A DNA stretch of 64,000 nt from positions 682,001 to 746,000 of the forward strand of contig NZ_CP150634.1 of the NCBI RefSeq assembly GCF_038051925.1, in the 5' to 3' direction. Shown here piece after piece: positions 6,132-39,196 of the stretch. The DNA comes from Methylotuvimicrobium sp. KM2 (GTDB lineage Bacteria > Pseudomonadota > Gammaproteobacteria > Methylococcales > Methylomonadaceae). How positions within the stretch are numbered: the stretch's first letter is position 1; each line of letters starts with the position of its first letter. Below the pieces are notes generated by a model. That model had not been told where the DNA came from and did not search any database. It saw only the letters and a list, made by a program, of their open reading frames with translations. Made by a program: the position numbers and the translations under genes.

Positions 6132-6137
6132 TTAAAT

Positions 6138-18907: not shown

Positions 18908-19468
18908 TCAATCAAGCAGGCTGCCTAAGTTGATTGAAAGGCAATCGAATTGAATCGATTGTCCGGATTCCTCGGCATGGTAAATGTGCTGCATTTTATA
19001 GCTGTTTTCAAGCGGTTCGGTAAAACGGGTCACTGTTTTTTTGTCGATATCGATCAGCCAGCACTCGGGAATCGCATATTTGGCATAGAGCGGTATTTTG
19101 GTGTTCAAGTCGTAACTGGCGGTCGAGTCGGACACCTCGATCAGCAACAGAATTTCGTTCGCTTCCGGATGCCGTGTTCGATAAAAATCGGTTTTAGGTT
19201 CGACGACCGCCAAGTCGGGTTGCGGCACGGAAAAATCGCCGAGTCGAACCGGGTCCTGAATGCGCACGATTGCGCGGTCGCTCAGTTTTTTAATCAAGGC
19301 ACTTGCCAAAAAGCTGACGATGCTTGCATGCTTGCTGCCAATCGGTGCCATATCGAAAAACTCTCCTTCAATCAATTCGATGCGGGACTCTTCATTGAAC
19401 AGGCCTCGTTCCGCCATGCGATCGAAATCTGAAATGCTGAACAAATGTTTTTGTATCGCCGTTTGCAT
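18908..19468 (-). CDS. Uma2-family (DUF820) putative endonuclease, first of two in the pqq cluster
   Basis: 186 residues. The PD-(D/E)xK-type core is visible: GEFFDMAPIGSKH, PQPDLAVVEP (acidic), and ILLLIEVSDSTASYDLNTK followed by YAKYAIPECWLID. Uma2 proteins are predicted nucleases, very common in cyanobacteria and in genomes rich in repeats. Their role is unproven. It sits between pqqC and pqqD, an unusual position. Confidence 0.85.
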   Translation of the reverse strand: MQTAIQKHLFSISDFDRMAERGLFNEESRIELIEGEFFDMAPIGSKHASIVSFLASALIKKLSDRAIVRIQDPVRLGDFSVPQPDLAVVEPKTDFYRTRHPEANEILLLIEVSDSTASYDLNTKIPLYAKYAIPECWLIDIDKKTVTRFTEPLENSYKMQHIYHAEESGQSIQFDCLSINLGSLLD

Positions 19469-19477: not shown

Positions 19478-19948
19478 TCAACTCGGTAGATGGATTTCGA
19501 CATTCATCTTGGATTTTTCGATTTTGCCGGAGGCGTCGTAATAATCGATAAGTCCGTTTTCCCAAACGATCCAGACTTCACCGGCACCAGCTTCCAAATA
19601 GCATTGGGTTTTTTTCAGCATCTCCTCTCTCGAGTTGGAAGGCGATACGATTTCGACGCAAACTTCCGGTGCCTGACTGTACGGCGTTTCGTAACCGTGG
19701 CGATCGATAAAATCTTTTGAGCACCAGGCAACATCGGCAACCTTGACGCCTTCCGTGGTTTGAATGGAGCATTCGGTGATTGTCTCTCCGTTTTTAAGAT
19801 TTTGCTCGAGCCGGTTGCCGAGGAAGAGTTGCAATCGACCGTGTTTGTTCGAGGCCGGCGTCATTTCGATTTTGCCATAGCGATTCAGCTCTATCTTGAA
19901 GGGAAGGTTTTGTAAACTTGGGTCATTGATGACATCGGACCATTGCAT
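19478..19948 (-). CDS. Uma2-family (DUF820) putative endonuclease, second of two in the pqq cluster
   Basis: 156 residues from the ATG at 19948, chosen because it falls 13 bases after the pqqC stop; an upstream frame extension would overlap pqqC. Core motifs: MTPASNKHGRLQ, GVKVADVAWCS, PEVCVEIVSPSNS and YLEAGAGEVWIVW. It is 9 bases ahead of the other Uma2 gene and only distantly similar to it, so they are not a recent duplication. Confidence 0.85.
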   Translation of the reverse strand: MQWSDVINDPSLQNLPFKIELNRYGKIEMTPASNKHGRLQLFLGNRLEQNLKNGETITECSIQTTEGVKVADVAWCSKDFIDRHGYETPYSQAPEVCVEIVSPSNSREEMLKKTQCYLEAGAGEVWIVWENGLIDYYDASGKIEKSKMNVEIHLPS

Positions 19949-19961
19949 CGTGATTACCGGA

Positions 19962-20693
19962 TCAGGCTTTGATGTTGAAATAAGGCGGCATTTCGTTAAT
20001 ATAAGCCATATACATCGCATCGGCCATCGTCCAGAGCACGTTCAGCTTAAACTGTAGGATTTCGACCATGCGTTCCTGCTGTTCGCGGGTCTTGAACCAG
20101 TCCAGCGTCAATTCCAGTCCGTGTTCGACATCGCGGCGCGCTTCGGTGAGGCGCTTGCGAAAATAAATGTAACCTTCCTTTTCAACCCACGGATAATGTG
20201 TCGGCCAGTTGTCGAGGCGTTGCTGATGAATTTTCGGCGCGAACAGTTCGGTCAACGACGAACTGGCGGCCTCATGCCAATCGGCGCGGCGCGCGAAGTT
20301 GACATAGGCATCGACCGCGAAACGCACGCCGGGTAGTACATATTGAAGTGACGTAATTTCATCGCGAGTCAGGCCGACCGCGATACCGAGCCTAATCCAG
20401 GCTTCGATGCCGCCGGGATCGTTCGGATGGCCGTCATGATCCAATATCCGTTGAATCCAGATCGCGCGGGTCTTGCGGTCCGGACAATTGGCTAGGATGT
20501 TAGCATCCTTGATCGGAATCATGACCTGGTAATAATAGCGGTTCGCGACCCAGCCTTGGATTTGTTCCTTGGTCAGTTTGCCCTCGTTCATCAGCGTGTG
20601 ATACGGATGGTGGATATGGTAATACTTTTCCATCCCGCGAAGCTGGGCTTCGAATTCTTCACGGGTCCAGGGTTTTGATTCGCTGTTGCTCAT
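19962..20693 (-). CDS. pqqC: Pyrroloquinoline-quinone synthase PqqC
   Basis: 243 residues, a cofactor-free oxidase catalysing the last ring closure and oxidation in PQQ synthesis. Family motifs: [18 protein letters not shown] near the N terminus, [16 protein letters not shown] and [10 protein letters not shown]. It starts 20 bases after pqqB. Confidence 0.97.
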
Positions 20694-23742: not shown

Positions 23743-24756
23743 ATGAACCTTTATCCATTAATTCGCCCGATATTATTTTCCCTCGATCCCGAAGTCAGTC
23801 ACAACCTAACCTTGAAGGCGCTGCAAGCCGCGCATCGTTCGGGATTGTCATCGGTGCTGTATCCTAAACTGCCTGCCAAGCCGGTCAAGATCATGGGGCT
23901 CGAATTCAAGAATCCGGTTGGCTTGGCCGCCGGGCTCGACAAAAACGGGGATTATATCGATGCGATGGCTGCCTTAGGTTTCGGCTTCATCGAAATCGGT
24001 ACGGTCACGCCGCGCCCGCAACCGGGTAATCCGAAACCGCGCTTGTTCCGTCTGCCCGAGCATCAGGCGATCATCAATCGCATGGGCTTCAACAATAAAG
24101 GCATCGATCATCTGTTGAACCGCGTCGAACACTGTCGATATAAAGGCGTGCTCGGCATCAACATCGGCAAGAATTTCGACACGCCGATCGAAAAGGCCGC
24201 CGACGATTATTTGATCGGCTTGCGCAAGGCCTACCGTGCGGCAAGCTACATCACGATCAATATTTCCTCGCCGAATACGAAAAATCTTCGGCAATTGCAG
24301 CAGGGCGACGAAATCAAGGGTCTGATTGCGGCATTGAAGGAAGAACAAGTGAAATTGCAACGAGAACACGGCAAATACACGCCGTTGGCGCTCAAGATCG
24401 CGCCCGACTTGACGCCGGATGAGGTCCGCCATATCGCAGCGCTATTGCTCGAGTTTGAAATCGACGCGGTTATTGCAACCAACACGACGATCGCAAGGGA
24501 TGCAATCGCGGGCCATAAATTGGCCGAAGAGGCCGGCGGCTTGAGCGGAGCGCCGGTCAAGAAAAAATCGACCGAAGTCGTCGCTGCCTTGGCAACGGAA
24601 TTGAACGGTAAGCTACCGATTATCGCGGCCGGCGGAATACTGAGCGGAGACGATGCATTGGAAAAGCTACAAGCCGGCGCGAGTCTAGTTCAGGTCTATA
24701 GCGGCCTGATTTACAAAGGTCCGGAATTGATCGCCGATATTTTGCGGAAAATTTGA
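23743..24756 (+). CDS. pyrD: Dihydroorotate dehydrogenase (quinone), class 2
   Basis: 337 residues from ATG 23743. The frame is open about 100 bases upstream, but the family begins with the membrane-associating helix [14 protein letters not shown]. Converts dihydroorotate to orotate with ubiquinone as acceptor. FMN and active-site motifs: [37 protein letters not shown] (catalytic Ser) and [12 protein letters not shown]. Stands alone between repeats. Confidence 0.96.
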
Positions 24757-24892
24757 GCGTTGTAGCCCATCTTTTATCGAGAAGCAGAGAGTTTCTCGAG
24801 CTGAACTCCCAAGCAAAGAGCTTGGGAATGCGCGGTGAGCGGAATCGTGTCATAGCAGGTCTTCTGTGAGGTAACGCTTCCGCCGTCCCTTG

Positions 24893-26272
24893 CTATTTCG
24901 TATCGACCAAAGGCCAAAAACTTCGTTTCCGTCCGTGTTGCGCGCGCAATTGCTGCTCATAGACAGTATGGTTGATCATCGGGCCGTATTCCGGTTTTTG
25001 CTGATCCAGTTTGCGCAGTTCTTTGAGATAATCGGCGGCATAATGGTAGGCTTGGGATTTGCCTCTATTCAGAATGTCGTCGAGCAGACAACGTTGCAGG
25101 ATGATACGAATCAAAACGGCGCCGGCCGGCACCAGTCCAAGCAAATGGGTCAATGTCAGGTAATGACATTTAGCCAGTTCGCCCGACTCTGCAAACAACA
25201 CCTGACGAGAGCGGTCGAACTCGCCCAATTGGAACAACAATTCTAGCTTTGCCGAGACAGAACTTTTAAGCATGGCCTGCTCGATCGTTCGTTGGCGCAG
25301 ATCCTCGGCCTCATCTTTCTCGGCCAGTGGCAAAAGCGCTTGAAGATTTTCAAAGGTTGGGCTGATGTCGAGGCGGGCTTTAAGTGCCTCCTTTTGCTGG
25401 TGCGGCAGATCAAGCGCACGGTAACATTCGGCCAATAGAGATAATCGTTCGGCATTGTTGTTTTGCCAACCGGTAGCCGGCCACGGTTCAGTTAGCCATT
25501 TGAGCGCGCCTTGATAATCTTCGCAGCGCAAATAAAAACGCGCCAGATTGCCGATCTGTAACGAATTCGGTTCCGGACTGACCAATAGCATCGAGCGTTC
25601 ATACAGAGCCGGATCTTTCAAGGCTTCGGCAATGCCTTGCAAATTCGCTAGCTCGCTAAAATAACCGGTACCGTTGGGGTTTTGGTTCAGCGCATTGCGC
25701 ACGCCTGTTTCATAAAACAACGCCAAGTGTCTCAATTCTTCTTCGGGTAACAGTTGATGCGCATTCGGCAGCAAGACGTCGTATATACCATAGTCATTTT
25801 CATTGACCAGGTTTTTGACTCGATCCTGCCATCCTTCCGGCGGGGCGGGGCTCAATCGGGCGGCTTGCAGCCATAATATGCAAGCATCCTGATAAACACC
25901 GCCGATAGCACCATTGGAATCATCACTGCGTTCCAGGCTATTGACGGAAGTGGCCAGCAAGGCATCTAGCAGCTTAAATGCCTGTTCCGGCGCTGAGGGC
26001 ATTATATGGTGTTCGATTTCCGCCAAAAGTTCTTGTATCTCATCCGCCAAGGACTCGGCTTCGTAGTAATCGACAAAGTTTTTTTGATGTTTCAGTGTCG
26101 AGATTTGCTGTCTCAACGATCTCGTCAAGGCATTGCTGTCTTCGCTTATCAGTAAGCGCTCTATACGTCGGTCGAGTCTTTCATCTTCGCCGTACAGGCT
26201 GCAGATAAAATCGGCAAGTACTTCTTGCGGTAGTTCGTTTAAGCGTGTTCGCAACGTGTTTTCTTCATTCAT
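24893..26272 (-). CDS. DUF6880-like helical repeat protein
   Basis: 459 residues, almost entirely helical with TPR-like pairs in the middle (LARFYLRCEDYQGALKWL, LLAECYRALDLPHQQKEAL). The N-terminal part (LPQEVLADFICSLYGED, RIERLL) and the ending RSFWPLV match, as I recall it, the DUF6880 family. Probably a cytoplasmic protein-protein interaction scaffold; function unknown. It is convergent with pyrD. Confidence 0.6.
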   Translation of the reverse strand: MNEENTLRTRLNELPQEVLADFICSLYGEDERLDRRIERLLISEDSNALTRSLRQQISTLKHQKNFVDYYEAESLADEIQELLAEIEHHIMPSAPEQAFKLLDALLATSVNSLERSDDSNGAIGGVYQDACILWLQAARLSPAPPEGWQDRVKNLVNENDYGIYDVLLPNAHQLLPEEELRHLALFYETGVRNALNQNPNGTGYFSELANLQGIAEALKDPALYERSMLLVSPEPNSLQIGNLARFYLRCEDYQGALKWLTEPWPATGWQNNNAERLSLLAECYRALDLPHQQKEALKARLDISPTFENLQALLPLAEKDEAEDLRQRTIEQAMLKSSVSAKLELLFQLGEFDRSRQVLFAESGELAKCHYLTLTHLLGLVPAGAVLIRIILQRCLLDDILNRGKSQAYHYAADYLKELRKLDQQKPEYGPMINHTVYEQQLRAQHGRKRSFWPLVDTK

Positions 26273-26378
26273 TTAAAACAATCTCATCGAATTTCTTTTT
26301 TTTCTGTTCGCTGTTATTTTTCTGTTTCTCAAGCTCTGTTTGGGAAGCTAAGCAGGGAAGCTCCGGCTTCCAGAAAAC

Positions 26379-26510
26379 TCACCAGTCACGAACGACATCG
26401 ATCAAGCCCGCCTGCCCCGGATAGTTCCGAACGCTCGGATAGCGCCAATATTCGGGCAGATCCACGTAACCGTGTTTCACGGTATTGTGATGAATATAGT
26501 TCAGTTTCTA
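26379..26510 (-). pseudogene. C-terminal fragment of a REP-associated tyrosine transposase (RAYT)
   Basis: The minus frame ending at the TGA at 26379 reads NYIHHNTVKHGYVDLPEYW, then RYPSVRNY and VVRDW. This is the conserved C terminus of Y1-type transposases of the RAYT group, which are thought to move REP elements. An in-frame stop at 26508 ends the upstream reading, and the catalytic His-x-His and Tyr parts are missing. It lies in decayed DNA. Confidence 0.8.
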
Positions 26511-27516
26511 CCGCATGACCGCATCGGATTAGATCAATTTTGCAGTTTCCAAAGCTCCGCTTGTCGGCCTCGGGAAGCAGGAACTTCCGGGGACTGCATT
26601 CCCAAGCAAAGAGCTAGGGAATGGGTGCTGGTACAAACAAGATACCCGATTCCACCCAAAGTTCCACCGATAAACTCAAATTCAGCCGCGTGAACGCCAC
26701 CGGTTCGGTGCTTCAAAAAGCCGGCCTGGTTCGCGACGCCGAAAATCGTACGCTGTTGCAAAAAGCCGATGATTAATGAATTGAATGATTTAACCCGCGG
26801 GCTTGCGTTATGAGGAGGCATATTGTTTGGCTTTACAGAGCCAAAGATAGAAATACTTGGATGCTAGTCGGGCCTAAAGAAGACCCAGGTGCGCGCACGG
26901 CAGGGAGAGCTACACATGCGCCTACGCAACCCGACGCTTCGCTTACCCGCGGCGGATTGGGAGCTGGAGTCGTGGCCCCCGATGCCGAAGCTACGCACCG
27001 GGACACTTCGAAGAGTGGCCGCCCAGTGGGAGCGGGAAGCAAGATTAAGATTGCCCGATTCCCCCAAAAGTTTCACCGATAATCTTAAATTCAGCCACGC
27101 CTAGAGCGGCGCCGGCAACGATATCCGCGCTTCGGCGCTCAGGAAAACCGGCCTGGTCAATGAATTAGATAATTCGGCCCGTGTCGGCTTGCACCCGTAT
27201 TGCATGGCTTTCCGGAGCCAAAGGCAGAAATACCAGGATGGTAACGAGCTGTGAATTCAAACCAAGTGGCGCAAGCTCAGCTTCTGATGCACTTGCGCCT
27301 ACGCGTCTTGAACTCTGCTGCAAATAACCGATGATTTGCGCAAGGACTTCAAGCGCCAATGGGGAACCCTTCTCGAAAACTATGTATACCGAACTCTGAA
27401 AGCTAGAGAGCTTGTCGTGCTGCATTTCCAAGTAAGGAGCTTGGGGATGCACGGAAGGTATCGATTTCCATGAAGAACCGCAAAAACCATAAAATGCTAT
27501 TGGTTTGATATATTTT
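26511..27516. other. Decayed, gene-free region with a diverged duplication
   Basis: No intact gene is supported. Two segments about 410 bases apart (about 26640-26860 and 27050-27240) share order and wording: GATACCCGATTCC/TGCCCGATTCC, CACCGATAA, AATTCAGCC, CCGGCCTGGT, AATGAATT and GGCTTTACAGAGCC/GGCTTTCCGGAGCC. The first encodes a C-terminal-looking tail (VLQKAGLVRDAENRTLLQKA, then DD and a stop). CCCAAGCxxxxAGCTTGGG-type small hairpins also occur. Confidence 0.45.
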
Positions 27517-27672
27517 TCAGTTGCTAAATAAAATGGATAAGAACAAACCAGTTATCAACCATTTCAAGAAGCTATCCTGTCGGTGATCGATGTCGAAAAG
27601 CCAGCACGACAAACGCCATATCGAATACAGAAAGCCTAGAAACGCCAGTAACAACCCGATTAAGACGCCCAT
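27517..27672 (-). CDS. Mini membrane protein downstream of the HIRAN gene
   Basis: 51 residues from the ATG at 27672, five bases after the HIRAN stop. Two hydrophobic segments (MGVLIGLLLAFLGFLYSIW and FLKWLITGLFLSILFS) flank a short charged linker (DIDHRQDS). No family is recognised and the ribosome site is weak. Its place at the end of a tight minus-strand run suggests translation coupled to the HIRAN gene. Confidence 0.45.
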   Translation of the reverse strand: MGVLIGLLLAFLGFLYSIWRLSCWLFDIDHRQDSFLKWLITGLFLSILFSN

Positions 27673-27677
27673 ATCCG

Positions 27678-28085
27678 TTATCGTTCGGTCAGATGAACCG
27701 CGAACTGGATGCGCTTCCATGGATTATGCGACTTGTTCAACGCAACGATACGCGCGCTCAAGCGCCTGCCGTTATCCAACAAATGGCAGCAGGCGGCATT
27801 GTCGATGCGCGGCACGTAGCCGAGCTTGTAACCCCGCCATTCGACGCGAACCGCACGCGGGTCGTAGCGGTTTTCAGGCTCGCGAATCAAGTGAAGATCA
27901 TCGTTTACGGACAATCGATCCCACACCGCTTCGCCTTCGTGATACTGGAAACCGGCGATCGGCGAGCGTTGTAATTCGATGTCCGGCTGGTTATCCGTTT
28001 GCCGCCTGAAAGAACGTGTTTCCGCCGATACGCTGCCCGCGCCGAGTAGCGCTGTCAATGCCGTGATAAAAGATCGTCTTTTCAT
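27678..28085 (-). CDS. Exported HIRAN-domain protein
   Basis: 135 residues. HIRAN core at about 38-130: SPIAGFQYHEGEAVWDRL, LIREPENRYDPRAVRVEW, KLGYVPRIDNAACCHLLDNG. HIRAN domains of the helicase HLTF bind 3' ends of single-stranded DNA at stalled forks. Unusually for a DNA-binding domain, the N terminus (MKRRSFITALTALLGAGSVSA) looks like a Tat or Sec signal peptide. It lies 9 bases after an unknown gene and 5 bases before the mini membrane protein. Confidence 0.8.
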   Translation of the reverse strand: MKRRSFITALTALLGAGSVSAETRSFRRQTDNQPDIELQRSPIAGFQYHEGEAVWDRLSVNDDLHLIREPENRYDPRAVRVEWRGYKLGYVPRIDNAACCHLLDNGRRLSARIVALNKSHNPWKRIQFAVHLTER

Positions 28086-28094
28086 GTGCTTACC

Positions 28095-29174
28095 TCAATG
28101 ATGCACCAGCCATAAATAGCCTTGCAGCCATAACCTTCCTTCGATGTCCTGGCCGATTTGCGGCGGTTCCGAACCGGACCAGACTTTGCGTGAAATATAG
28201 ATGTCCAAGTCGGCATCTTCGTCAAATCGCATGACCGTCGCGCGAACCCGCCAACCCTCTTGACCGAGCCAATCCTTGAATTCGCATACCGACTTGATAG
28301 GAGCATGAAAACTGTAATCGTCGCGGTCCCAGTCGGTTATCGGCAAAAAGATTGCCGAACCGTCAAAAGAAATCGTCAACTCGGTCGATACAGGCGTTTC
28401 TTCGGCGGATAAATGCCGGTTGAGCCAGGCCGCTTCGTCGGGATGTCGCTTGATTGGCATTTCCAAATGCTCGGCAGGCCGAGCGTCGTAGGCGATTCCC
28501 GCTAAAATGAAGTCGTATGTTCGCCCTGACTCATACCAATGACGGTTGATCAAAAAACGGGTGTCGAAAAACTCGATTTCGGCAATGCCCCAGCTTGCTT
28601 TTATTGTGGCTTCGACGCCGCTTTCCCATACCGAAACCCTGTCGAGTGTCAGCGTTTGTTGCATGCCGGCATCGGAAAATGGGAAGATTCCGACAACCCC
28701 ATTGCCCTCCGGTTTTTTGTCGATGACGATTGCCAAACCTTGTTGCCGTTCCGGCCAGGCTAATTGAAAGCCTTCTCGCCAAGTTTCCGGTTTAATACGA
28801 GGCGGCGGATAAAAGTCGCCGTAACCTGATTGCACCGATGCTTGCGGCAGAATTTCCGGCAATTGCTCCAACAGATCCTGTGCGTCGGCAAAGAACGCCA
28901 GCCAATGCGATCCTGGAAAATGCTCGGCTTCGGCGGTTTCATAAACAAACGTCGAATCGGGCCAAGATGCCGGAATATCCGATTTGTCAGCATTTTCCTC
29001 CGGGAGCAATGGTTTGGCGAAGAGTTCCTGCTCAAGTAATTCTTTCTTGATCAGTACTTCTTTACGATTTTCCAGCTCGAGACCGACATACTGCTCGCCA
29101 ACGAAGCAAACACGGCAGTGACCATGTTTTGGATGTTGAATGATGCTGTTCAATGTCAAATCGTTTGCATGCAT
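28095..29174 (-). CDS. Unknown protein upstream of the HIRAN gene
   Basis: 359 residues from ATG 29174; a TTG at 29186 is an alternative. The first 45 residues (IIQHPKHGHCRVCFVGEQY, VLIKKELL) resemble a small beta-barrel such as a CarD/Tudor-like fold. The rest is mixed alpha/beta with many tryptophans and acidic patches (WREGFQLAWPERQ, PITDWDRDDYSFHAPI). I do not recognise a family. It forms a tight minus-strand run with the HIRAN and mini membrane genes. Confidence 0.6.
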   Translation of the reverse strand: MHANDLTLNSIIQHPKHGHCRVCFVGEQYVGLELENRKEVLIKKELLEQELFAKPLLPEENADKSDIPASWPDSTFVYETAEAEHFPGSHWLAFFADAQDLLEQLPEILPQASVQSGYGDFYPPPRIKPETWREGFQLAWPERQQGLAIVIDKKPEGNGVVGIFPFSDAGMQQTLTLDRVSVWESGVEATIKASWGIAEIEFFDTRFLINRHWYESGRTYDFILAGIAYDARPAEHLEMPIKRHPDEAAWLNRHLSAEETPVSTELTISFDGSAIFLPITDWDRDDYSFHAPIKSVCEFKDWLGQEGWRVRATVMRFDEDADLDIYISRKVWSGSEPPQIGQDIEGRLWLQGYLWLVHH

Positions 29175-29384
29175 GGCGTTACTCAAAGGTCGGTAATGGG
29201 ATGTTGATTTGCGTTAGGCGATTTGCTGTTTCCCAAACTCCGGTTTGGGAAACCCTTGCCGGCATCGGGAAGCAGAGCTTCCAGTCCTGCATTCCCAAGC
29301 AAGAGCTTAGGAATGAGCGGAATTTTAAAATCCCTAACGCGAGGCCAGCATAAACTCTCAGTGGCTCAAAAACTGAGGCAGCGC

Positions 29385-30359
29385 TCAATCCCGGTAAATT
29401 TTTGCGATGCGGTTTGCTTCTTCGGCGACAGTATCGCGCAAGGATGGCGGCGATTCGACTTCGACATGATGGCCGTGGCGAAGAATGTCCATTAACAATT
29501 CGCGTGTGTCGGCGAACGGCAATGTGAGACGGTAGCTGCCGTCCGGCAAATCCTCGCCGACTTGATCGGGATGCCAGCTTTCGTAACGGACCCAGCGGGA
29601 ACGCTCCGCCGAAAATTTCAAAACCGCCCAATCGACGGGTTGGCCCGAGAAGATGCCGTAAGCGCGGGCCAAATGTTCGTCGAGTCGCTCGGGCGGTATG
29701 TCGCGCGCGGCATCGGGCGAAATCGTCATTCGCTTCAGGCAGTCCACCGAAAACGTTCGCAAGGACTGCCGCCAGTGACACCAGGCGTCCAGATACCAGT
29801 TGTCGCGGTAGTGAATCAACCGTTGCGGGGAGACGATACGCCGGTTGATTTCATCACGTCCGCGGTTCCAAGCGTCGATTTCGAGTCGCTTGCGATTCAA
29901 CAAGGCTGAAGCGATTTCACTGAAAAAATGCGGCTCGACGTGGCGTTTCGCGATCGATAGCAGCCTAACTCGCTCGGCGATTTCGCCGGCCTGATGACCG
30001 CCGGCTTCCAGCAAACCGGTCAGGCGCGTCTGCAATGGAGCGATATGTCTAGCCAGGATGCCGGGTTCGAGGTCCGACAGCAATTTTTGTGCGGCCAACA
30101 ATGCATACAATTCTCCGGCACTGAACCACAATCCGGGAAGCTCGTGAGCTGGTCCTTCACAAGGCGGATCGTCGAAGCGATAACCGCCTTCCTCACGGTC
30201 CCAAACGATCGGCGCATGCAAGCGGTCGCGTAGATATTCGATGTCGCGCGTGAACGTGGAGCGGGAGATGCAGAGTCGTTCGAGAAAAACGGCGATCGGC
30301 ACGACGCGCTGCTGGCGTAGCAGGTGTTCAATCGCGTAAAAGCGTTCGGTTCGGTTCAT
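29385..30359 (-). CDS. WYL-domain transcriptional regulator (YafY family)
   Basis: 324 residues from the Met that opens the helix-turn-helix (MNRTERFYAIEHLL); the frame extends 12 codons further. Winged HTH at about 1-60 (SRSTFTRDIEYLRDRL), WYL domain at about 130-205 (RDNWYLDAWCHW) and a C-terminal extension. WYL regulators sense ligands such as nucleic-acid products and control phage defence systems (BrxR, CapW) and the DNA-damage response. It is divergent from the helicase fusion gene across about 420 bases of repeats. Confidence 0.9.
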   Translation of the reverse strand: MNRTERFYAIEHLLRQQRVVPIAVFLERLCISRSTFTRDIEYLRDRLHAPIVWDREEGGYRFDDPPCEGPAHELPGLWFSAGELYALLAAQKLLSDLEPGILARHIAPLQTRLTGLLEAGGHQAGEIAERVRLLSIAKRHVEPHFFSEIASALLNRKRLEIDAWNRGRDEINRRIVSPQRLIHYRDNWYLDAWCHWRQSLRTFSVDCLKRMTISPDAARDIPPERLDEHLARAYGIFSGQPVDWAVLKFSAERSRWVRYESWHPDQVGEDLPDGSYRLTLPFADTRELLMDILRHGHHVEVESPPSLRDTVAEEANRIAKIYRD

Positions 30360-30394
30360 TGGCGGATTCGGTGTATTGTTATCGCTGTTTCCCA

Positions 30395-30720
30395 AGCTCC
30401 GTTCTCATCGTTATACATAAGTCAAAAATTATGGTTTTGCAATCTTAGCTAATGAGGCTTCGATACCATTTTTTGTCGCCCAACGTTCCCGACTTTCCCT
30501 CACCTAGCGTTAGGTGAGGGACGACGAAGGCGTCGCTCCCACAAGGGGCTGAATGCTCTGTGGGAGCAATCCCCTGATCGCGATTTCGGAGCCACTGATA
30601 TCCAATATCCGCAGATTTATCAAACAGCACCGTTTCCATTTATACGATGACCTCTGTTTAGGAAGTTTACCGATACTTGTGTATAAAGGCGAGAGCAGAG
30701 CTTGGGAATGAGCGGAACGT
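30395..30720. repeat. Mosaic repeat (type C) between the WYL and helicase genes
   Basis: Shares the TCCCTCACCTAGCGTTAGGTGAGGGA hairpin core (about 30496-30521; shorter arms than elsewhere), GTGGGAGC units and ATACCATTTTTTGTCGCCCA with 11585-11960 and 35985-36425. Any shared operator for the divergent genes would have to lie here or in the 60 bases before the helicase start. Confidence 0.65.
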
Positions 30721-30780
30721 AAGAATGGTTTACAATCAATCAACAATAACTCCGCGCCTCAGTGCGAGAAATAGATAACT

Positions 30781-33700
30781 ATGACAACGGACTGGCAAGC
30801 CTTTCAAAACGACTGTTGCAGCCTCGATCTCGAAACTAACGAAAACGGCGAGATTTTTGCGCTCGGCGGGCGCTTTCGCGGGCAGGAGTTTATTCGCAAG
30901 GCGCCTTTCGATATTCGAAGAGTCTTAGGCGAATTCGACCGCTTTGCCTCCGAGGCTGAATGTATCCTAGGTCATAACCTGCTCGGCCACGACTTGCCGG
31001 TTTGCCGTGCGATAGCTCCGAATCATGGCTTTTTGAACAAACCGGTCGTCGATACGCTGTATCTGTCGCCGCTGGCTTTTCCCGAAAATCCGTATCATCG
31101 CCTCGTCAAGAATTACGAGTTGGTGCGCGACGGCCTGAGCGATCCTTTGCTCGACGCCAAGTTGGCCGAGTCGCTGTTTCAGGATCAATGGAATGCCTTG
31201 CGCGAACAGCAACAAGCCTTCGGCATCGTATCGTTTTATCACTACGCCTTTTCCGGCGATCCTGATTTCAGCGGAATCTGCCGCATGATGGAGTCCGTTG
31301 GGGCCGAATTACCGGGCGCCTCGCAAGCCTTCGATATATTCAAGCAAACCTCGTCCGGTAAAGTCTGCGAGACCGCGTTCAACAAGGTCGTGTTGTCCTA
31401 TCTGCCCGATCCACGTTTGCGTCAAGCGTTGGCTTATTGCCTAGCCTGGCTGCGGGTCGCGGGCGGCAATTCGGTGCTGCCGCCGTGGGTTCGGCAACGC
31501 TTTCACGATGTCGCGCCGGTGTTAAGTCAACTGCGCGATATTCCATGCGGCAATCCGGCATGCGCTTATTGCGCCGGCGTGCACGATCCGGTGAGTCAAT
31601 TGACGCGCTATTTCGGATTTCCGGCTTTTCGCGAGGAACCGGCAAGCGATGACGGCGGCAGCTTACAGCAAGCGATCGTGCAGGCCGCGATGAGCGACCG
31701 GCCGTTGTTTGCGGTATTGCCGACCGGCGGCGGTAAGTCGTTGTGTTTTCAATTGCCGGCATTGGTGCGCTATCAGCGGCGCGGCGTGTTGACGGTCGTG
31801 ATTTCGCCGCTGCAGGCCTTGATGAAGGATCAGGTCGATAATTTGCGCAACAAGACCGGCGCGCCGAATGTCGCCGCGCTCTACGGTCTGTTGACCGCAC
31901 CCGAGCGAGGCGAAGTGCTCAGAGCGATACAGTTGGGCGACATCGCGATACTCTATGTCTCTCCCGAACAACTGCGCAATACCGGTTTTCAAAATGCGAT
32001 CGCGCAACGAGAAATCGGCTGCTGGGTGTTCGACGAAGCGCATTGTTTATCGAAATGGGGACACGATTTTCGGCCCGATTATCTCTATGCCGCGCGCTTC
32101 ATCAAGGAATTCGCCGCGAAGCACCACGCGCCGCTGCCGCCGGTGCAATGCTTCACCGCGACCGCGAAGCAAGACGTCAAGGATGAAATCATCGATTATT
32201 TCCGCGCTCATTTGGGTCAGGAGCTGGCGGTTTTCGAGGGCGGCGTCGAACGCAGCAATTTGCATTTCGAAGTGCAGACCGTCAATGCCGCCGACAAGTA
32301 TCCGCGCATCCACTCCCTATTGACCGAGCGCTTGACCGGCAAGACCGGCAGCGCGATCGTTTATTGTTCGACCCAAAAAAACACCGAAGCGGTGGCCGAG
32401 TTTCTGCAACAAGCAGGATGGCAAGCCGAGGCCTTTCACGCCGGCAAGGATGCGGCCGAGAAAAAGCATATCCAGGAAAACTTCGTCGGCGGCATCACCC
32501 GCGTGATTAGCGCGACCAATGCGTTCGGCATGGGTATCGACAAGGAAGACGTACGCTTGGTGATTCATGCCGACATTCCGGGCTCGCTCGAAAACTATTT
32601 GCAGGAAGCGGGGCGCGCCGGGCGCGACCGTCAGGATGCCGAATGCGTGCTGTTGTTCGATGAGAACGATATCGACACGCAATTCAAACTATCGGCGCAC
32701 TCGCAAATCACGCAGCGCGATATCGCACAGTTGCTACGCGGAATCAGGCGATGCAAAAAAGACAAGTCCGGCAATGTCGTCTTGACGGCCGGCGAGCTAT
32801 TGCAGAACGATGCGGTCGACACGTCGTTCGGTAGCGACGATTATAATGCCGCAACTAAAGTCGTCACGGCGGTTTCTTGGCTGGAGCGGGCCGGTTTCGT
32901 GGAGCGCAACGAAAACCGTACGCAAGTTTTCCAGGGTCGACCGAAGGTCAAAAGTCTCGACGAAGCCGAAGCCAAGATCGATAAATTACCGCTGTCGCAA
33001 CGCCAGAAAAAGCGCTGGCTGGCGATTCTCGAAGAATTGTTCAATGCCGACAGTGACGAAGGCTTCAGCGCCGACCAACTGGCGATGCTCGGCGCGTTTG
33101 CCGAAAATGACGAAGACAAACCCGGCGAAACAGCCAGTCAACGCGTGATCAGAACTTTGTACGACATGGCCGAGCAGGGGCTGATTCAAAAAAGTCTGCT
33201 ACTGACCGCATTCATCCGCTACAAGGTGACCCAATCATCTCAGGCACGGTTAACCAAGGTCTGCGATCTGGAGAGGGCGATGATCGCCGCGATGCGTGAA
33301 TTAGCGCCCGATGCCGCAGGCGACGATTGGCAGGTCTTGTCGCTTCGGCATCTGAACCAACATTTGCTGGATCAAGGTTTCGAACAAAGCCATTTGGAAG
33401 CGCTGCGCCTGTTGTTGAACAGTTTGAGTCGGGACGGCTTGGGCCTTGCCGGCAACAAAGGCAGTTTGTTCGTGCGCCATCGGGGGCTCGATCAATATGC
33501 GGTCAAATTAAACCGCGGCTGGCCCGCGCTGATTGCGACTGCCGAAAAACGGCAAGGCATCGCCAAGATCGTGTTGGATTGCATCGTCCGAAGGGTACCG
33601 GAAGGCACGCCGCCGGCCGCCGATGTGCTGGTCGAATTTGCCGCCGAAGACTTGCTCTCGGCCTTGCAGCAAGATGCGGTCGCATTGGCGGAAGTGAAAG

Positions 33701-35949
33701 ATCCGCTCGCAGCGGTCGAGCGGGCGCTGAATTTTTTGCATGAACAAAAAATCATTACCTTGCAAAAAGGCCTGGCGGTTTTTCGTCAGGCGATGACCAT
33801 CAATGTTTTGCCGGAAGCAAAATCGCGGCGCTACCGCAAGGGCGATTACGAACCGCTGTCGCAGCATTACGGCGAACGGGTGTTTCAGGTGCATGTGATG
33901 AACGAATATGCGCGGCGCGGACTCGAAAAAATCGGTCAGGCGCTGGCCTTCGTCGTCGCCTATTTTTCGCTCGATAAGGCCGAATTCGTGCAGCGCTATT
34001 TTGCCGGGCGCAAGGAAATACTCGAACGCGCGGCCAGCCAACAAGCCTTTCAGCGCATCGCCTCCGATCTCAATAACCCCGAGCAAATCGCGCTGGTCTC
34101 GGCGCCGGAAGACGACAATGCGCTGATTCTGGCGGGGCCGGGTTCCGGAAAGACGCGTGTCGTCGTGCACCGCTGCGCGTATTTGTTACGCGTCAAGCAA
34201 GTACCGGCGCGGGCGATTTTGGTACTGTGTTTCAACCGTTCCGCCGCGAATGAAATTCGGCGCCGGTTGATCGAGCTGGCCGGCGATGAAGCACGCTACG
34301 TAACCGTGCAAACCTATCATGGTTTCAGTTTGCGCTTGACCGGTCATGCCGTAAGCGGTCTGTACAGCGACGGTGAAGCCTCGAGCGAACCGTTCGCCGA
34401 AATGATCGGCGAGGCGATTGCTCTGTTGAAGGGCGAAAAAAATTTGCTCGGCGTCGAACCGGACGCAGCCCGAGATAGATTGCTGGCCGGTTACCGTTTC
34501 ATCCTGGTTGACGAATACCAGGATATCGACGAGGCACAATACCGGCTCATTTCAGCGATTGCCGGACGCAGTCTCGACGACGACAGCCGATTGACGATTC
34601 TCGCGGTCGGCGACGACGACCAGAATATTTACCAATTTCGCGGCGCGAATGTCGAGTTCATCCGGCAATTTCAGCAAGACTATCAAGCGCAGGTGCATTA
34701 CCTAGTCGAAAATTACCGCTCGAGCGCGCATATCATTGCCGCCTCGAACGCCTTGATCGGACATAACCGGGATAGGATGAAACAACAGCATCCGATACGG
34801 ATCAACAAACAGCGAGGCAATCTCGAGCCCGGCGGGCGATGGCAAGCGCTCGATACCCTAACGCGCGGCAGAGTTAGGCAAATCGATACCCTAGGCGAGT
34901 CGATGCAAGCCTTGCAGGTTGCCGAAGAACTCAAGCGGCTGCGGCAATTAGACGTTCGCCTGCAATGGCCGAACTGCGCGGTGCTTGCACGCGAATGGCA
35001 GTTTTTGAGTCCGGTTCGGGCCGTTTTCGAGGCGCAAGGCATTCCTGTCAGCATCGTGCTGCCGGCCGATCGCAGGCCGCCGCCGTTTCGCATTCGCGAA
35101 AACGCGGGTTTACTCGATGCGTTGAAACATCATGAGGAACCGCTGACGCGTCCGTCTTATTGGCTCGATTGGTTGGACGAACATTATGGCGAGCAACCGG
35201 GTAACCCATGGCTATTGCAGCTCAAAGGACTTCTCGGCGACTGGCGGAATGTAACCGGAGACGGCGAGACGGCCAATAGTCAGACTCTCGATTTCATCGC
35301 CGAAACGCTCGTCGAACAACGCCTCGACCGAACCTTCGGACAGGGCGTCTTGCTCGGCACCGTGCATTCGGTCAAAGGTCTCGAATTCGATCATGTCGTG
35401 GTAATCGACGGCGGTTGGAATTCGCGAGCCGGAGAAGAAGAGCAGCGCCGTCTACTCTATGTTGCAATGACCCGCGCGCGAGAAACGCTTTGCCTGATGC
35501 ATCGTAAGGATCTTCGCAATCCGTATCTGTCCGAGCTACGGGGCGATCATTTGCTGATTACCGAAGCGCCGGAGCTCGACGCGCAAGATCGGCCAATCAT
35601 TCTTCGCGATTACGAAATCCTGGGCTTAAAAGACTTCAACATCGGTTATGCCGGTTTATTTCCCGAACAACATTCGATACACCGACGTCTCGCGGAATTG
35701 AATCCGGGCTGCGAACTGAATTTCGCCCGTATCAACAGTAAATTGGTTTTGCAATCCGGCGGCGAGACCGTAGCCGCGCTGTCGCAAAAAGCCCAACATG
35801 AATGGGCGGACAAATACGTCAATGCAGAAAAAGTGACCGTGCTTGCAATGATCCGCCGCCATGCCGAAGACGGCGAGGAGCAATATCGCAAGCGCTCTCA
35901 ATGCCCGGTATGGGAGATTCCGTTCGTCGAAGTCGTGTGTCGGGGCTAG
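30781..35949 (+). CDS. DEDDh exonuclease - RecQ helicase - UvrD helicase fusion
   Basis: 1722 residues. About 1-200: 3'-5' exonuclease-like, with SLDLE (Asp16, Glu18), GHNLLGHDLP and a C-terminal HRLV...LLDAKLAE motif. A possible zinc knuckle (CGNPACAYC) is near 259. About 290-900: superfamily 2 RecQ helicase with LPTGGGKS (about 316), FDEAHC (about 417), FTATAKQ and QEAGRAGRDRQ. About 1090-1640: superfamily 1 UvrD/Rep helicase with LAGPGSGKT (about 1120), VDEYQDID (about 1243), GDDDQNIYQFRG, ENYRSS, GTVHSVKGLEFDH and YVAMTRARE. It probably unwinds and trims DNA in repair or defence. Intact and apparently functional at all motor motifs. Its neighbours are a WYL regulator and a HIRAN protein. 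Confidence 0.9.
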   Translation: MTTDWQAFQNDCCSLDLETNENGEIFALGGRFRGQEFIRKAPFDIRRVLGEFDRFASEAECILGHNLLGHDLPVCRAIAPNHGFLNKPVVDTLYLSPLAFPENPYHRLVKNYELVRDGLSDPLLDAKLAESLFQDQWNALREQQQAFGIVSFYHYAFSGDPDFSGICRMMESVGAELPGASQAFDIFKQTSSGKVCETAFNKVVLSYLPDPRLRQALAYCLAWLRVAGGNSVLPPWVRQRFHDVAPVLSQLRDIPCGNPACAYCAGVHDPVSQLTRYFGFPAFREEPASDDGGSLQQAIVQAAMSDRPLFAVLPTGGGKSLCFQLPALVRYQRRGVLTVVISPLQALMKDQVDNLRNKTGAPNVAALYGLLTAPERGEVLRAIQLGDIAILYVSPEQLRNTGFQNAIAQREIGCWVFDEAHCLSKWGHDFRPDYLYAARFIKEFAAKHHAPLPPVQCFTATAKQDVKDEIIDYFRAHLGQELAVFEGGVERSNLHFEVQTVNAADKYPRIHSLLTERLTGKTGSAIVYCSTQKNTEAVAEFLQQAGWQAEAFHAGKDAAEKKHIQENFVGGITRVISATNAFGMGIDKEDVRLVIHADIPGSLENYLQEAGRAGRDRQDAECVLLFDENDIDTQFKLSAHSQITQRDIAQLLRGIRRCKKDKSGNVVLTAGELLQNDAVDTSFGSDDYNAATKVVTAVSWLERAGFVERNENRTQVFQGRPKVKSLDEAEAKIDKLPLSQRQKKRWLAILEELFNADSDEGFSADQLAMLGAFAENDEDKPGETASQRVIRTLYDMAEQGLIQKSLLLTAFIRYKVTQSSQARLTKVCDLERAMIAAMRELAPDAAGDDWQVLSLRHLNQHLLDQGFEQSHLEALRLLLNSLSRDGLGLAGNKGSLFVRHRGLDQYAVKLNRGWPALIATAEKRQGIAKIVLDCIVRRVPEGTPPAADVLVEFAAEDLLSALQQDAVALAEVKDPLAAVERALNFLHEQKIITLQKGLAVFRQAMTINVLPEAKSRRYRKGDYEPLSQHYGERVFQVHVMNEYARRGLEKIGQALAFVVAYFSLDKAEFVQRYFAGRKEILERAASQQAFQRIASDLNNPEQIALVSAPEDDNALILAGPGSGKTRVVVHRCAYLLRVKQVPARAILVLCFNRSAANEIRRRLIELAGDEARYVTVQTYHGFSLRLTGHAVSGLYSDGEASSEPFAEMIGEAIALLKGEKNLLGVEPDAARDRLLAGYRFILVDEYQDIDEAQYRLISAIAGRSLDDDSRLTILAVGDDDQNIYQFRGANVEFIRQFQQDYQAQVHYLVENYRSSAHIIAASNALIGHNRDRMKQQHPIRINKQRGNLEPGGRWQALDTLTRGRVRQIDTLGESMQALQVAEELKRLRQLDVRLQWPNCAVLAREWQFLSPVRAVFEAQGIPVSIVLPADRRPPPFRIRENAGLLDALKHHEEPLTRPSYWLDWLDEHYGEQPGNPWLLQLKGLLGDWRNVTGDGETANSQTLDFIAETLVEQRLDRTFGQGVLLGTVHSVKGLEFDHVVVIDGGWNSRAGEEEQRRLLYVAMTRARETLCLMHRKDLRNPYLSELRGDHLLITEAPELDAQDRPIILRDYEILGLKDFNIGYAGLFPEQHSIHRRLAELNPGCELNFARINSKLVLQSGGETVAALSQKAQHEWADKYVNAEKVTVLAMIRRHAEDGEEQYRKRSQCPVWEIPFVEVVCRG

Positions 35950-35984
35950 AAAAAACATTGGCTCTAAAATGTAACCCGACCCTG

Positions 35985-36600
35985 AGATATCCCCACAAAA
36001 CGCTCGTTCCCATGCTCTGCGCTCCGTTATACATAAGTCAAAATCGACCGTTTTACTCGTTCCCACCGCTTCAGCGTGGGAATGCATACCGATCTTGCCT
36101 CGGCTGACAAGGTATGGGTTCCCACGGAGGACCGTGGGAACCAGAAAAAATTACTGTTTTGCAATCTTAGCTAATGAGGCCTCGATACCATTTTTTGTCG
36201 CTCAACGTTCCCGACTTTCCCTCATCTAGCGTTAGGTGAGGGACGATCTGGGGATCGCTCCCACAGAGCATCCGGCCCCCTTGTGGGAGCGACGCCTTCG
36301 TCGCGATTTCGAAGCCACCGATGTTCAATATCCGCAGATTTATCAAACAGCACCGTTTCCAGGTGTACGATGACCTTTGTTTAGCAAGTTTACCGATACT
36401 TGTGTATAACGGCGAGTGCTCTGCGTGGGAATGCCGCTTTAGACGCTCTGCGTCGACTGCGGCGGGCAATTGGATTAAGAAACAGTCGAGCATGTATCGT
36501 TGCTCTTTTCGGGATTATCGACCCCTGGGGACGCAGAGCGTCCCGGGATGCATTCCCACGCAGAGCGTAGGAACGATGAAAAAATCAATATATCTATCAA
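35985..36600. repeat. Mosaic repeats (type C and REP-like)
   Basis: CGTTCCCA...TGGGAACG hairpins, GCATACCGATCTTGCCTCGG (shared with 15245), GAGGGACGATCTGGGGATCG and GACGCTCTGCGTCG units in series. No gene is supported. Confidence 0.65.
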
Positions 36601-36719
36601 TTTTCAGCCATAGCAAATCGTTTTATTTGGCTATTTTGTGGGGATACCTCAGAATCTGACCCCTTTTTTATGGGTCTTTTGCGGAACGTTTGGAGGCTTT
36701 TTGTCGCTATCGACTCTTC

Positions 36720-37277
36720 TCAATCCCAAGCCGATTCATAAATCCGCTCGATGGGAATCTCCTGCTCCACCGAGTGTAAGGGGATCGTCGCCCCGTCTGT
36801 GTAAATTGACATTTCCCAGCCACTGGCGGCACGGCGGAACACGCGCACGTCCATAAAGCTTTGCGCAACCAGCACGTATTCCTGCAAGCTTTCGATTGAC
36901 TGGTACATCAGGCGCTTATCTTCTTTATCGTATTTGGCCGTGGAATCGGACAAAACCTCGATCACCAGCTTCGGTTTTTCCCGGAAATGACTGTTCGGGG
37001 CGGTTTCGCAGGTAACCATCAGATCAGGATACAAAAAGGCGTCTGCTGTGCCGACTTTTAATTTCAGGTCGGACATGAACACTCGGCAGGGTGTGCCGCG
37101 TAAGTGCTCGCGCAATATAAAAGCAAGGTTCAGGGAAATAATGTTATGACTATCGCTTGTGCCGGTCATCGCGAAAATTTCACCGGCCACGAATTCATGT
37201 TTAATTGGACTGCTTAGCTCCATCTCCAGGTACTCCTCGGCACTGAGGCGGGTTAATTTGGGATGAGGTACAGACAT
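36720..37277 (-). CDS. Uma2-family (DUF820) putative endonuclease
   Basis: 185 residues from the ATG at 37277, which has AGGAG eight bases ahead; the frame extends eight codons further without a site. Core: SPIKHEFVAGEIFAMTG, ALFLYPDLMV-like acidic motif (AFLYPDLMVTCE), KLVIEVLSDSTAKYDKEDK and YQSIESLQEYVLV. Third member of the family in this window, closer to the cyanobacterial type than the two in the pqq cluster. Role unknown. Confidence 0.88.
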   Translation of the reverse strand: MSVPHPKLTRLSAEEYLEMELSSPIKHEFVAGEIFAMTGTSDSHNIISLNLAFILREHLRGTPCRVFMSDLKLKVGTADAFLYPDLMVTCETAPNSHFREKPKLVIEVLSDSTAKYDKEDKRLMYQSIESLQEYVLVAQSFMDVRVFRRAASGWEMSIYTDGATIPLHSVEQEIPIERIYESAWD

Positions 37278-37499
37278 ACAGTCTCCTGAAAAAGCTGGCA
37301 ATTAACTAACCCTATTCTTCATGGGTTTTTGTGCATTTGCAACTTGAACTTGTATGTGAATCGGCGTTTCTCTCCCAAGCCCCGGCTCTCACTGTTACAC
37401 GCAAGTATAAATATAACTGTCTTGCAAAAAGCAATTCCAGAACGCGAGATTGCCGAGCCTTACGGAAACGCTTTTGGTGTTAAAGCACTAGCGGAGTTT

Positions 37500-37689
37500 C
37501 CTTGCCCGCCGTTAGGTGAGGGACAACGTAGACGTTGTTCCCGCAAGGGTTCGGTTTCTCTGTGGGAGCGATCCCCAGATCGCGATTTCGAAGTCCGGAG
37601 CGTTAGGTAATAATAAATGTCATCGAGGTCACATTATAAAAGAGCAAGACGGTATCTACGACTTTGTATAACGAAGAGAACCCCTGCTT
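37500..37689. repeat. Mosaic repeat (type C) that truncates the integrase
   Basis: GCCGTTAGGTGAGGGACAAC, GTGGGAGCGATCCCCAGATC, a TAATAAATGTCATCGAGGTC block and TTTGTATAACGAAGAGAA. Its right edge meets the end of integrase homology at about 37690. Confidence 0.6.
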
Positions 37690-37923
37690 GGGAGCGAGAT
37701 AAAAACTGCTTTACCTCGCTAGCGGCCAAGTCACGCGGATGGCGTTTGCCAAAATGCAAAATATAGCGTTTAATCCACTCCTATAGGCTTGTTCAGTACG
37801 GATGCTATAGTGCTTCAAACGAATCTTGGCCTGAACTTGATCCAATAATGTCGGTGAATTTTCCGAAGCCGACAATGACGTTTTTTGTATTTTTATTAGG
37901 AAAGGTTGTTTTTTACAACTCAC
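37690..37923 (-). pseudogene. Integron integrase (IntI-like), frameshifted and truncated
   Basis: From ATG 37923 the minus frame reads LLDQVQAKIRLKHYSIRTEQ, then AY: the characteristic N terminus of integron integrases. A one-base deletion at about 37783 shifts the frame. The correct continuation, EWIKRYILHFGKRHPRDLAA then SEVKQFLS, is present in the next frame. Homology then ends at a type C repeat. The whole catalytic domain (Arg-His-Arg-Tyr) is missing. It is divergent from a cassette row, as in a standard integron. Confidence 0.85.
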
Positions 37924-38022
37924 TGAAAGTTTTATGATTTTAATTTTAAAAACCGAATTAGGCAGCTGTTTGACGCAATATTTTGCGTCATTTAGTATGT
38001 CTAATTATAGTTATGCGTTAAA
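37924..38022 (+). other. Probable attI region of the integron remnant
   Basis: Between the integrase start and the first cassette. It holds a perfect inverted repeat TGACGCAA-tatt-TTGCGTCA (about 37972-37991) and ends in GCGTTAAAG (38015-38023), a near match to the GTTRRRY insertion core. The first cassette start codon follows 20 bases later. Confidence 0.55.
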
Positions 38023-38041
38023 GATAGGTCGGCAACACAAT

Positions 38042-38767
38042 ATGGCTAAACATCCGTTACAGCAAATAAGCATTATTCAAGAACTTGAGTTGTCGATTGA
38101 AACCATTAAATCAGCCTTGTCGATCATTCAAAAGATAGAACACCAAAAAACGCCTTCATTTTTGATATTTCTATTACTTTCTACTGGCATTGAAAGATTG
38201 TTCAAGATAATTATAGGTATGCGTCTTCTATCTGACGGTAAGCAATTTCCTACGGAAGAAGAGTTAAAGCGAAAATACGGACATGATCTATCCAAATTAA
38301 AAAGAAAGTTATTGGCTCTTTGCGTTGCTAAACCACCATCCGTTCCAGTATCTAAGGAAGATAAGGATTTTCTTGAAAATGATGTTGTGCTTAATGAACT
38401 GCTAGCACATTTAAGTGAGTTCGCATTAAAAGATCGATATGTGTATATGAATAGAATTGCAAACGAGGAGTCTACCGGGAAATGGCTTTCTCATCGCTGG
38501 GACGAAATTGAATCTAAAATTGTTCCTCAAAAACAAGCAATAGAAATGATATTAAATAACAAGCAAAATGAATATAAGAGCATAATAGCACTTCAACTTG
38601 TTATTACGGTTGAGCGTTTATTAGGTGCTGTATGCCGGATGGTTACGCTCGGCAAAATGGATGGTGACTCTAATAGCGCAGCCACATTACTTTACGATTT
38701 TTTATTCCTTAAAGAGTCTGATTTAGGAAAGCGTAATTATGACCTTTTTGGCTATTCACCGATATAA
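38042..38767 (+). CDS. Cassette 1: orphan helical protein
   Basis: 241 residues from ATG 38042, the first start after the attI-like core; the frame is open 36 codons upstream but that is attI DNA. AT-rich, unlike its neighbours. Mostly helical. ERLFKIIIGMRL and RKYGHDLSKLKRKLLAL recall HEPN-type proteins (a polar G-H-D-L motif), but the match is too weak to assign. It ends six bases before attC1, the tight packing typical of integron cassettes. Confidence 0.65.
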   Translation: MAKHPLQQISIIQELELSIETIKSALSIIQKIEHQKTPSFLIFLLLSTGIERLFKIIIGMRLLSDGKQFPTEEELKRKYGHDLSKLKRKLLALCVAKPPSVPVSKEDKDFLENDVVLNELLAHLSEFALKDRYVYMNRIANEESTGKWLSHRWDEIESKIVPQKQAIEMILNNKQNEYKSIIALQLVITVERLLGAVCRMVTLGKMDGDSNSAATLLYDFLFLKESDLGKRNYDLFGYSPI

Positions 38768-38772
38768 ATATC

Positions 38773-38863
38773 GCATAACAAGGCCAATCCAGCCGACCCA
38801 AAAAGCGACGCGCCTCCTACGTGGCGCTTCGCTTTTTGGGTCGGCTGATTGGCAGCGTTAACA
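38773..38863 (+). other. attC site 1 (59-base element)
   Basis: GCATAAC at the left and GTTAACA at the right frame a long imperfect hairpin. CCAATC-c-AGCCGACCCAAAAAGCG pairs with CGCTTTTTGGGTCGGCT-GATTGG with extrahelical bases, the hallmark of attC. Loop around TCCTAC. Confidence 0.85.
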
Positions 38864-38866
38864 GTC

Positions 38867-39196
38867 ATGAACATAACCGATGCAACACCACAGCGCCGGA
38901 AGTTGGGAATAGAGCTGTTTGTCGATGGCACAGAGAGCCTTGTCTACGAGGGCGTCGTTTTTCATCGGCACGAGGGGCACCTCGTTGTGGCCTCTTACTC
39001 GGACTTCATACATAGCGAGAACAGTTCGCTCCGTGAAGCGATAGAAAAGATAGAGCGCTCAAAGGCAGTTTTGGCTGCCTTCAGCGCGGTTTCGGCTTCG
39101 TTGCCCCACAAATATGAGTTCTGTTACGACTATGGCATGGGTACGGTAAAGCTCGCGGAACTACAAGGAAGCGAAGTCGTTTGGTGCGCGAAATGA
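38867..39196 (+). CDS. Cassette 2: small protein of unknown function
   Basis: 109 residues from ATG 38867, three bases after attC1, and ending one base before attC2. The sequence is mixed: FVDGTESLVYEGVVFHRHEG, then a helix LREAIEKIERSKAVLAAF. No family is recognised. Position between two attC sites shows it is a mobile gene cassette. Confidence 0.7.
   Translation: MNITDATPQRRKLGIELFVDGTESLVYEGVVFHRHEGHLVVASYSDFIHSENSSLREAIEKIERSKAVLAAFSAVSASLPHKYEFCYDYGMGTVKLAELQGSEVVWCAK

Follow-up and report, generated by a model that had tools for sequence, protein, structure and literature searches.

Two independent accessory units side by side in Methylotuvimicrobium sp. KM2: a probable WRN-like helicase-nuclease and a probable CRISPR-ancillary-type cassette

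Our analysis of 64 kb of the 5.0-Mb, one-contig genome of Methylotuvimicrobium sp. KM2 (the window, from genome G000; other G and L numbers denote comparison genomes and loci) indicates that two independent units lie side by side at positions 27517-35949. One is a single gene whose 1722-residue product joins an exonuclease-like domain, a RecQ-type helicase and a UvrD-type helicase (the fusion). The other is a cassette of four genes, for a WYL regulator, a protein of a rare family that we call U359, a HIRAN protein and a small membrane protein. Quite probably, we think, these are accessory units of separate kinds, a WRN-like helicase-nuclease and an orphan cassette of the CRISPR-ancillary type; we infer the biochemistry and the physiological role of each. 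A first-pass annotation had placed five genes here and taken them for one regulated locus. All five genes are present, and we reject the single system on synteny.

Independence of the fusion and the cassette

Public genomes yielded 325 matches to the fusion, of which 80 loci were kept for comparison, and a family-wide census covered 151 genomes, one sampled per species. When open reading frames (ORFs) were clustered around 78 fusion loci, no family recurred at a fixed distance, except for the shared chromosomal context in Methylotuvimicrobium and in small groups. Around 23 further fusion loci of the family the neighbours vary by lineage and are mostly housekeeping genes, none of them recurring. 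The fusion is a stand-alone gene without a conserved neighbour. In particular, tblastn near the fusion loci found WYL, U359 and HIRAN homologues in L001 only, and WYL alone in L005 and L042, so that the co-occurrence with fusion homologues which the first-pass annotation proposed to look for is missing from almost all of them.

Moreover, the two units come apart in related genomes. G094 has homologues of the WYL (69%), U359 (65%) and HIRAN (60%) proteins and of the membrane protein, arranged as in the window, at C2:602-605 kb; its fusion is at C2:1,818 kb, 1.2 Mb away. In L001, which is the same genome as G078, DNA matching window positions 27514-27840 and 30126-30389 is contiguous: about 2.3 kb has been lost, and the reading frame runs from WYL residue ~91 straight into the middle of HIRAN; the fusion is intact and 96% identical. 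A group II intron reverse transcriptase has been inserted there (L001/L115, 9510-10859), separating what is left of the cassette from the fusion. L002, L003, L004 and G037 have the fusion downstream of pyrD and no cassette beside it, and in the Methylotuvimicrobium contigs read the fusion follows pyrD, with the cassette absent or a deleted remnant. In the window, pyrD and the cassette are separated by a DUF6880 protein of 459 residues (24893-26272, reverse strand), which did not turn up in the pyrD-fusion interval of L003 or L004.

It is the lack of conserved fusion neighbours, the 1.2-Mb separation in G094 and the cassette deletion beside an intact fusion that lead us to two units. Could the WYL protein, U359, HIRAN, the membrane protein and the fusion still form one regulated system? 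The WYL gene and the fusion are divergent neighbours in the window, and genomes with this type of HIRAN all carry the fusion, an association that we weigh below. However, each of the three observations just named speaks against such a system, and conservation upstream of the fusion, as seen in its relatives, begins at 30697-30745, short of the WYL gene. We regard a single system as very improbable.

Architecture, distribution and possible role of the fusion

The fusion gene (30781-35949, forward strand) encodes RecQ-type DEAD and Helicase_C domains and UvrD domains by Pfam; the window proteins were searched with Pfam, NCBIfam and PADLOC, and conservation of the fusion was read from an alignment of 70 sequences. 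The chain begins with the DEDD exonuclease-like domain and its conserved acids (residues ~1-150), followed by a helical linker with a CCCH cluster (C256, C261, C264, H268) that is conserved over the 70 sequences, the RecQ core (~265-645), a region predicted to mix helices and strands (~645-1085), a UvrD-like superfamily 1 (SF1) helicase (~1085-1580) and a C-terminal domain (~1590-1722) for which a profile search against solved structures gave no significant match. Both helicase motif sets are conserved across the alignment, in agreement with the intact motors described earlier, and the RecQ signature motifs F.R..Q (motif 0) and DEAHC.S.WGHDFRP.Y are invariant.

The RecQ half passes the NCBIfam family model TIGR00614 (recQ_fam, 290.8 bits against a cut-off of 219.8). 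It misses the recQ equivalog TIGR01389, a model of full-length bacterial RecQ with its RQC/HRDC part (336 bits against 640), covering only profile positions 5-346 of 591, and the motor is therefore RecQ-related rather than RecQ itself; its profile matches end before the C-terminal part of bacterial RecQ. In an AlphaFold model of residues 1-1085 (mean pLDDT 80.7) the RecQ core is confirmed by structure comparison with Foldseek and VIA: the modelled core matches 1oyy with Z 25.5 and a root-mean-square deviation of 2.5 over 370 residues, and superposes on the catalytic cores of WRN, BLM, RECQL5 and E. coli RecQ with Z ~25. The UvrD half matches PF00580 (6e-42) and PF13361 (3e-18) and carries the SF1 motifs AGPGSGKT, DEYQDID, GDDDQNIY, ENYRS, T.H..KG.E and YV..TRA, and it misses the uvrD, pcrA and rep equivalogs (172.5, 172.3 and 143.1 bits against cut-offs above 900). 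The SF1 motif set is shared with the UvrD/PcrA/Rep and AddA/RecB SF1A helicases, but here the SF1 motor forms the C-terminal half of a fusion, and no AddA/RecB nuclease domain was seen. In L194 (G146, 3125-8271) the fusion appears as two overlapping ORFs, with the break near residue 1110 separating the RecQ half from the UvrD half, either by a frameshift or by natural fission.

The exonuclease domain is the least conventional part. Its DEDD acids, D16, E18, D71 and D125, are present in every aligned relative that covers them. When the domain is aligned with DnaQ-like proteins encoded in the KM2 genome and with an exonuclease from a Thiothrix plasmid, the His site of DEDDh enzymes, five residues before the last Asp, corresponds to residue 120; this residue is Ser in the window protein and, over 69 alignment rows, Asn in 58 and Ser in 11. 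Thus, while Pfam bears out the WYL, HIRAN, RecQ and UvrD identifications of the first-pass annotation and the four acids are invariant, its label DEDDh does not hold. Since the usual general-base His is replaced by Asn or Ser, nuclease activity of the predicted domain is uncertain. No significant Pfam or PDB profile match, RNase_T included, was found for the domain, and the VIA comparison of the N-terminal half of the fusion is dominated by RecQ and says nothing about it.

As in WRN-type RecQ helicases, a DEDD-family 3'-5' exonuclease-like domain precedes a RecQ core in a single chain, so that the fusion gives a WRN-like layout in bacteria; it differs from WRN in being bacterial, in carrying an extra, complete UvrD-type motor after RecQ and in having Asn or Ser as the general-base residue. 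Such proteins are catalogued only as 'RecQ family ATP-dependent DNA helicase', and our literature search found no paper describing a RecQ-UvrD fusion. A chain of ~1720 residues with exonuclease, RecQ and UvrD parts, conserved end to end in several phyla, offers a tractable single-gene case of two helicase superfamilies in one molecule. How might it work? From domain knowledge of RecQ, WRN and UvrD, we propose that the DEDD exonuclease domain would trim a 3' DNA end and that the RecQ (SF2) and UvrD-type (SF1) motors, both expected to run 3'-5', would unwind or strip the substrate. One polypeptide would then combine the tasks of a WRN-like exonuclease-RecQ and of a UvrD/AddA-like motor, presumably without a dedicated partner gene. 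Its likeliest job would be to help process DNA that is damaged, stalled or foreign, the host already having separate recQ (1656655), uvrD-like (3004924) and rep-like (4804866) genes on the same chromosome.

Most of the 80 kept relatives align end to end, and their hosts include Methylococcales, Thermodesulfobacteriota, Verrucomicrobiota, Kiritimatiellota, Myxococcota and others. The nearest named relatives among these loci are from Methylotuvimicrobium and Methylomicrobium, with fusions 96% identical, as they are in five other Methylotuvimicrobium genomes. The distribution is patchy, as had been anticipated: the fusion is present in 46 of the 151 family genomes and on 19 plasmid records, from Alphaproteobacteria, Gammaproteobacteria and Bacteroidales. 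No phage record searched holds a copy. The fusion tree does not sort by phylum: it needs 16 label changes where 6 would be the minimum, a pattern suggestive of horizontal transfer but no proof of it.

Whether the fusion serves as an accessory DNA-repair or replication-restart enzyme, processing ends or forks in the manner of WRN and unrelated to phage, seems to us evenly balanced. The domain logic of exonuclease, RecQ and UvrD fits such a role, as do a single chromosomal gene kept vertically in the genus and the absence of defence clustering around it, but canonical recQ, uvrD and rep are already in the genome and some 70% of the family genomes lack the fusion. It could instead be a single-gene anti-phage protein that degrades invading DNA from its ends, like a one-polypeptide RecBCD or a Gabija-type nuclease/helicase, which we consider possible but rather doubtful. 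A patchy, horizontally mixed distribution with plasmid copies would be consistent with defence, and some fusion copies lie near restriction genes, HipA or toxin genes. The best PADLOC matches are also to defence helicases, DpdF, PsyrT and GajB, whose RecQ-like or UvrD-like motors resemble those of the fusion. However, only these generic motor parts match, the NCBIfam model of DpdF is missed (198.9 bits against 550), and no Dpd, Gabija (GajA) or PsyrA partner is seen among neighbouring ORFs. Moreover, defence families showed no visible excess beside the fusion when PADLOC was run on 100 neighbours close to it and 100 lying 6-10 kb away, a crude, sampled comparison of the top 25 families. Many copies lie among housekeeping genes, no phage record has one, and in Methylotuvimicrobium the fusion is stably kept at pyrD.

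The cassette and its CRISPR-linked relatives

All four cassette genes are on the reverse strand. The first (29385-30359) encodes a transcription regulator of 324 residues with an N-terminal helix-turn-helix and WYL and WCX domains (Pfam, 2e-18 and 2e-19). A TTG at 30395 is an alternative in-frame start; the ATG at 30359 is more likely, since it gives 324 residues, the length of the G094 homologue. U359 (28095-29174, 359 residues) matches no family of Pfam, NCBIfam or PADLOC and is rare, with 2 further genomes of ~368 in a class search and 3 further of ~397 in a phylum search; viral contigs searched by exact patterns contained none. Its AlphaFold model is modest (pLDDT 72.6, built on only seven sequences). 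By VIA, residues 5-51 weakly resemble the CarD RNA-polymerase-interaction barrel and UvrD C-terminal barrels (Z 5.0-5.7; CarD 5.7 over 47 residues), and the C-terminal half weakly resembles paired oligonucleotide-binding (OB) barrels such as ModG (Z 8.1 over 131 residues); Foldseek found nothing with E <0.001. We take these likenesses as leads rather than identifications.

The HIRAN protein (27678-28085, 135 residues, Pfam HIRAN 7.8e-18) begins with MKRRSFITALTALLGAGSVSA, a signal of the twin-arginine (Tat) type, and its RR-x-F/L motif and hydrophobic stretch recur in the G094 and G098 copies. A HIRAN protein predicted to be exported is the oddest feature of the cassette. PADLOC matches it to the C-terminal part of the PDC-M03B models of the candidate system PDC-M03, but it covers only profile positions 137-227 of 250, the N-terminal half being missing and a Tat-type signal standing in its place. 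The last gene, for a membrane protein of 51 residues (27517-27672), we take to be real because G094 has an alignable 51-residue copy immediately after HIRAN, with about two thirds of the residues identical as judged by eye; the DNA of the window gene is also conserved in L001. Rfam and tandem-repeat scans of 24-39 kb gave no hits, and promoter and terminator scans gave matches at chance level.

The relatives of these proteins are linked to CRISPR-Cas. Forty other loci in the family carry this WYL type, and in 33 of them cas genes come immediately after it, which upholds the earlier connection of WYL with phage defence. PADLOC on representative loci found Cas3e/Cas8e, Cas9/Cas1 of type II, Cas3f, Cas3g/Cas7g/Cas8g/Cas1g and Cas1f (subtypes I-E, I-F, I-G and II), the remaining subtypes being read by resemblance. 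The window regulator belongs to the same WYL+WCX family as the WYL regulators of CRISPR operons, but is followed by the cassette genes rather than by cas genes. Among the other seven loci, five (L139, L140, L141, L142, L168) have the WYL gene at the head of a recurring set for a NUDIX protein, an ADP-ribosylglycohydrolase and a histone-deacetylase-like protein, possibly an NAD/ADP-ribose-based system; one has neither kind of neighbour and one runs off its contig end.

U359 homologues lie in type I-G/I-U CRISPR loci of G027, G052, G065 and, from another family, G214, and in the first three the gene directly precedes cas4-cas1. That cas4-cas1 occurs in 10 of the 151 family genomes, three of them with U359. 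In L109 a HepT/MNT-type toxin-antitoxin pair (8603-9254) is inserted in an I-G-variant cas operon beside U359, and in L112 (G072, 6500-7510) a distant U359 relative lies between rtcA-like and rtcB-like genes for RNA repair. In G094 an rtcB gene stands ~5 kb away from the cassette, which also has integrases nearby. In G098 the order is WYL, a Tat-type HIRAN gene and cas1 (Cas1f) of a type I-F locus; our literature search found no paper linking a HIRAN protein to CRISPR loci. The cassette supplies a short list of uncharacterized CRISPR-linked proteins, U359 and Tat-HIRAN, whose roles can be tested.

In the window itself, the block proteins gave no Cas match in Pfam, NCBIfam or PADLOC besides the WYL models and the helicase motors, and a scan of 24000-39000 found no CRISPR-type tandem array. 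The genome has cas1 at three other places, none near the cassette. One of its CRISPR loci (L127, G000:C1:3336000-3355000) resembles type III-B and has a reverse-transcriptase gene directly after cas1. We propose that the WYL protein would control an accessory module that binds nucleic acid and has CRISPR ancillary genes among its relatives but no cas genes of its own. A decaying, functionless remnant of a lost CRISPR-Cas locus would also fit cas-linked relatives around a block with neither cas gene nor array, as well as the partial deletion in L001/G078. We think this unlikely, since G000 and G094 both keep all four genes intact and in one order despite 30-40% protein divergence, which suggests selection on the cassette. 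A bolder alternative is a CRISPR-derived, cas-independent defence module, in which the WYL protein would sense infection or DNA damage and switch on U359 along with the exported HIRAN and its membrane partner; U359 is taken here to be a nucleic-acid binder with paired OB folds and an interaction barrel of the RNA-polymerase type. The HIRAN protein and its partner would bind incoming DNA ends at the envelope, and beside cas1 U359 and HIRAN would serve spacer acquisition. We give this scheme very little credence.

Several observations weigh against our preferred reading, that of a WRN-like helicase-nuclease next to an independent CRISPR-ancillary-type cassette. The general-base His of a DEDDh nuclease is absent, leaving nuclease activity uncertain, and profile searches with the exonuclease domain gave only sub-threshold hits to known exonucleases, in which the motifs do align. 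The window WYL protein groups closest with that of G094 and next with those of the NUDIX/ADP-ribosylglycohydrolase/deacetylase set, not with most CRISPR WYL proteins. Finally, the fusion is present in each of the four genomes (G000, G078, G094, G098) that have a Tat-type HIRAN gene or what remains of one, against 46 of 151 overall. Chance would be an unlikely explanation if the genomes were independent, but they are few and related, two of them sharing a genus; a loose genome-level association is possible on these tiny numbers.

Repeats and other window features

The first-pass annotation had also seen repeats on both sides of the block and suggested an accessory island. Two copies of a 287-nt direct repeat, ~85-90% identical, are indeed present, one in the divergent spacer between the WYL gene and the fusion (30424-30710) and one downstream of the fusion (36146-36433). 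This palindrome-bearing repeat is lineage-specific and part of neither unit. It has 65 matching pieces over the chromosome, with at least 40 occurrences of ~285 nt; being dispersed genome-wide, it does not mark an island boundary, and we reject the island on this ground. A related copy lies at 37497-37593, and the repeat resembles the dispersed elements known as miniature inverted-repeat transposable elements or repetitive extragenic palindromes.

Adjoining the fusion, 36720-37301 encodes a Uma2-family protein (Pfam), a putative endonuclease, to which the reverse-strand ORFs at 18908-19468 and 19478-20020 are similar by eye. Just downstream of an unmatched ORF of 277 residues (37934-38767) there is a near-perfect 25-nt inverted repeat with an 8-nt gap (38790-38847).

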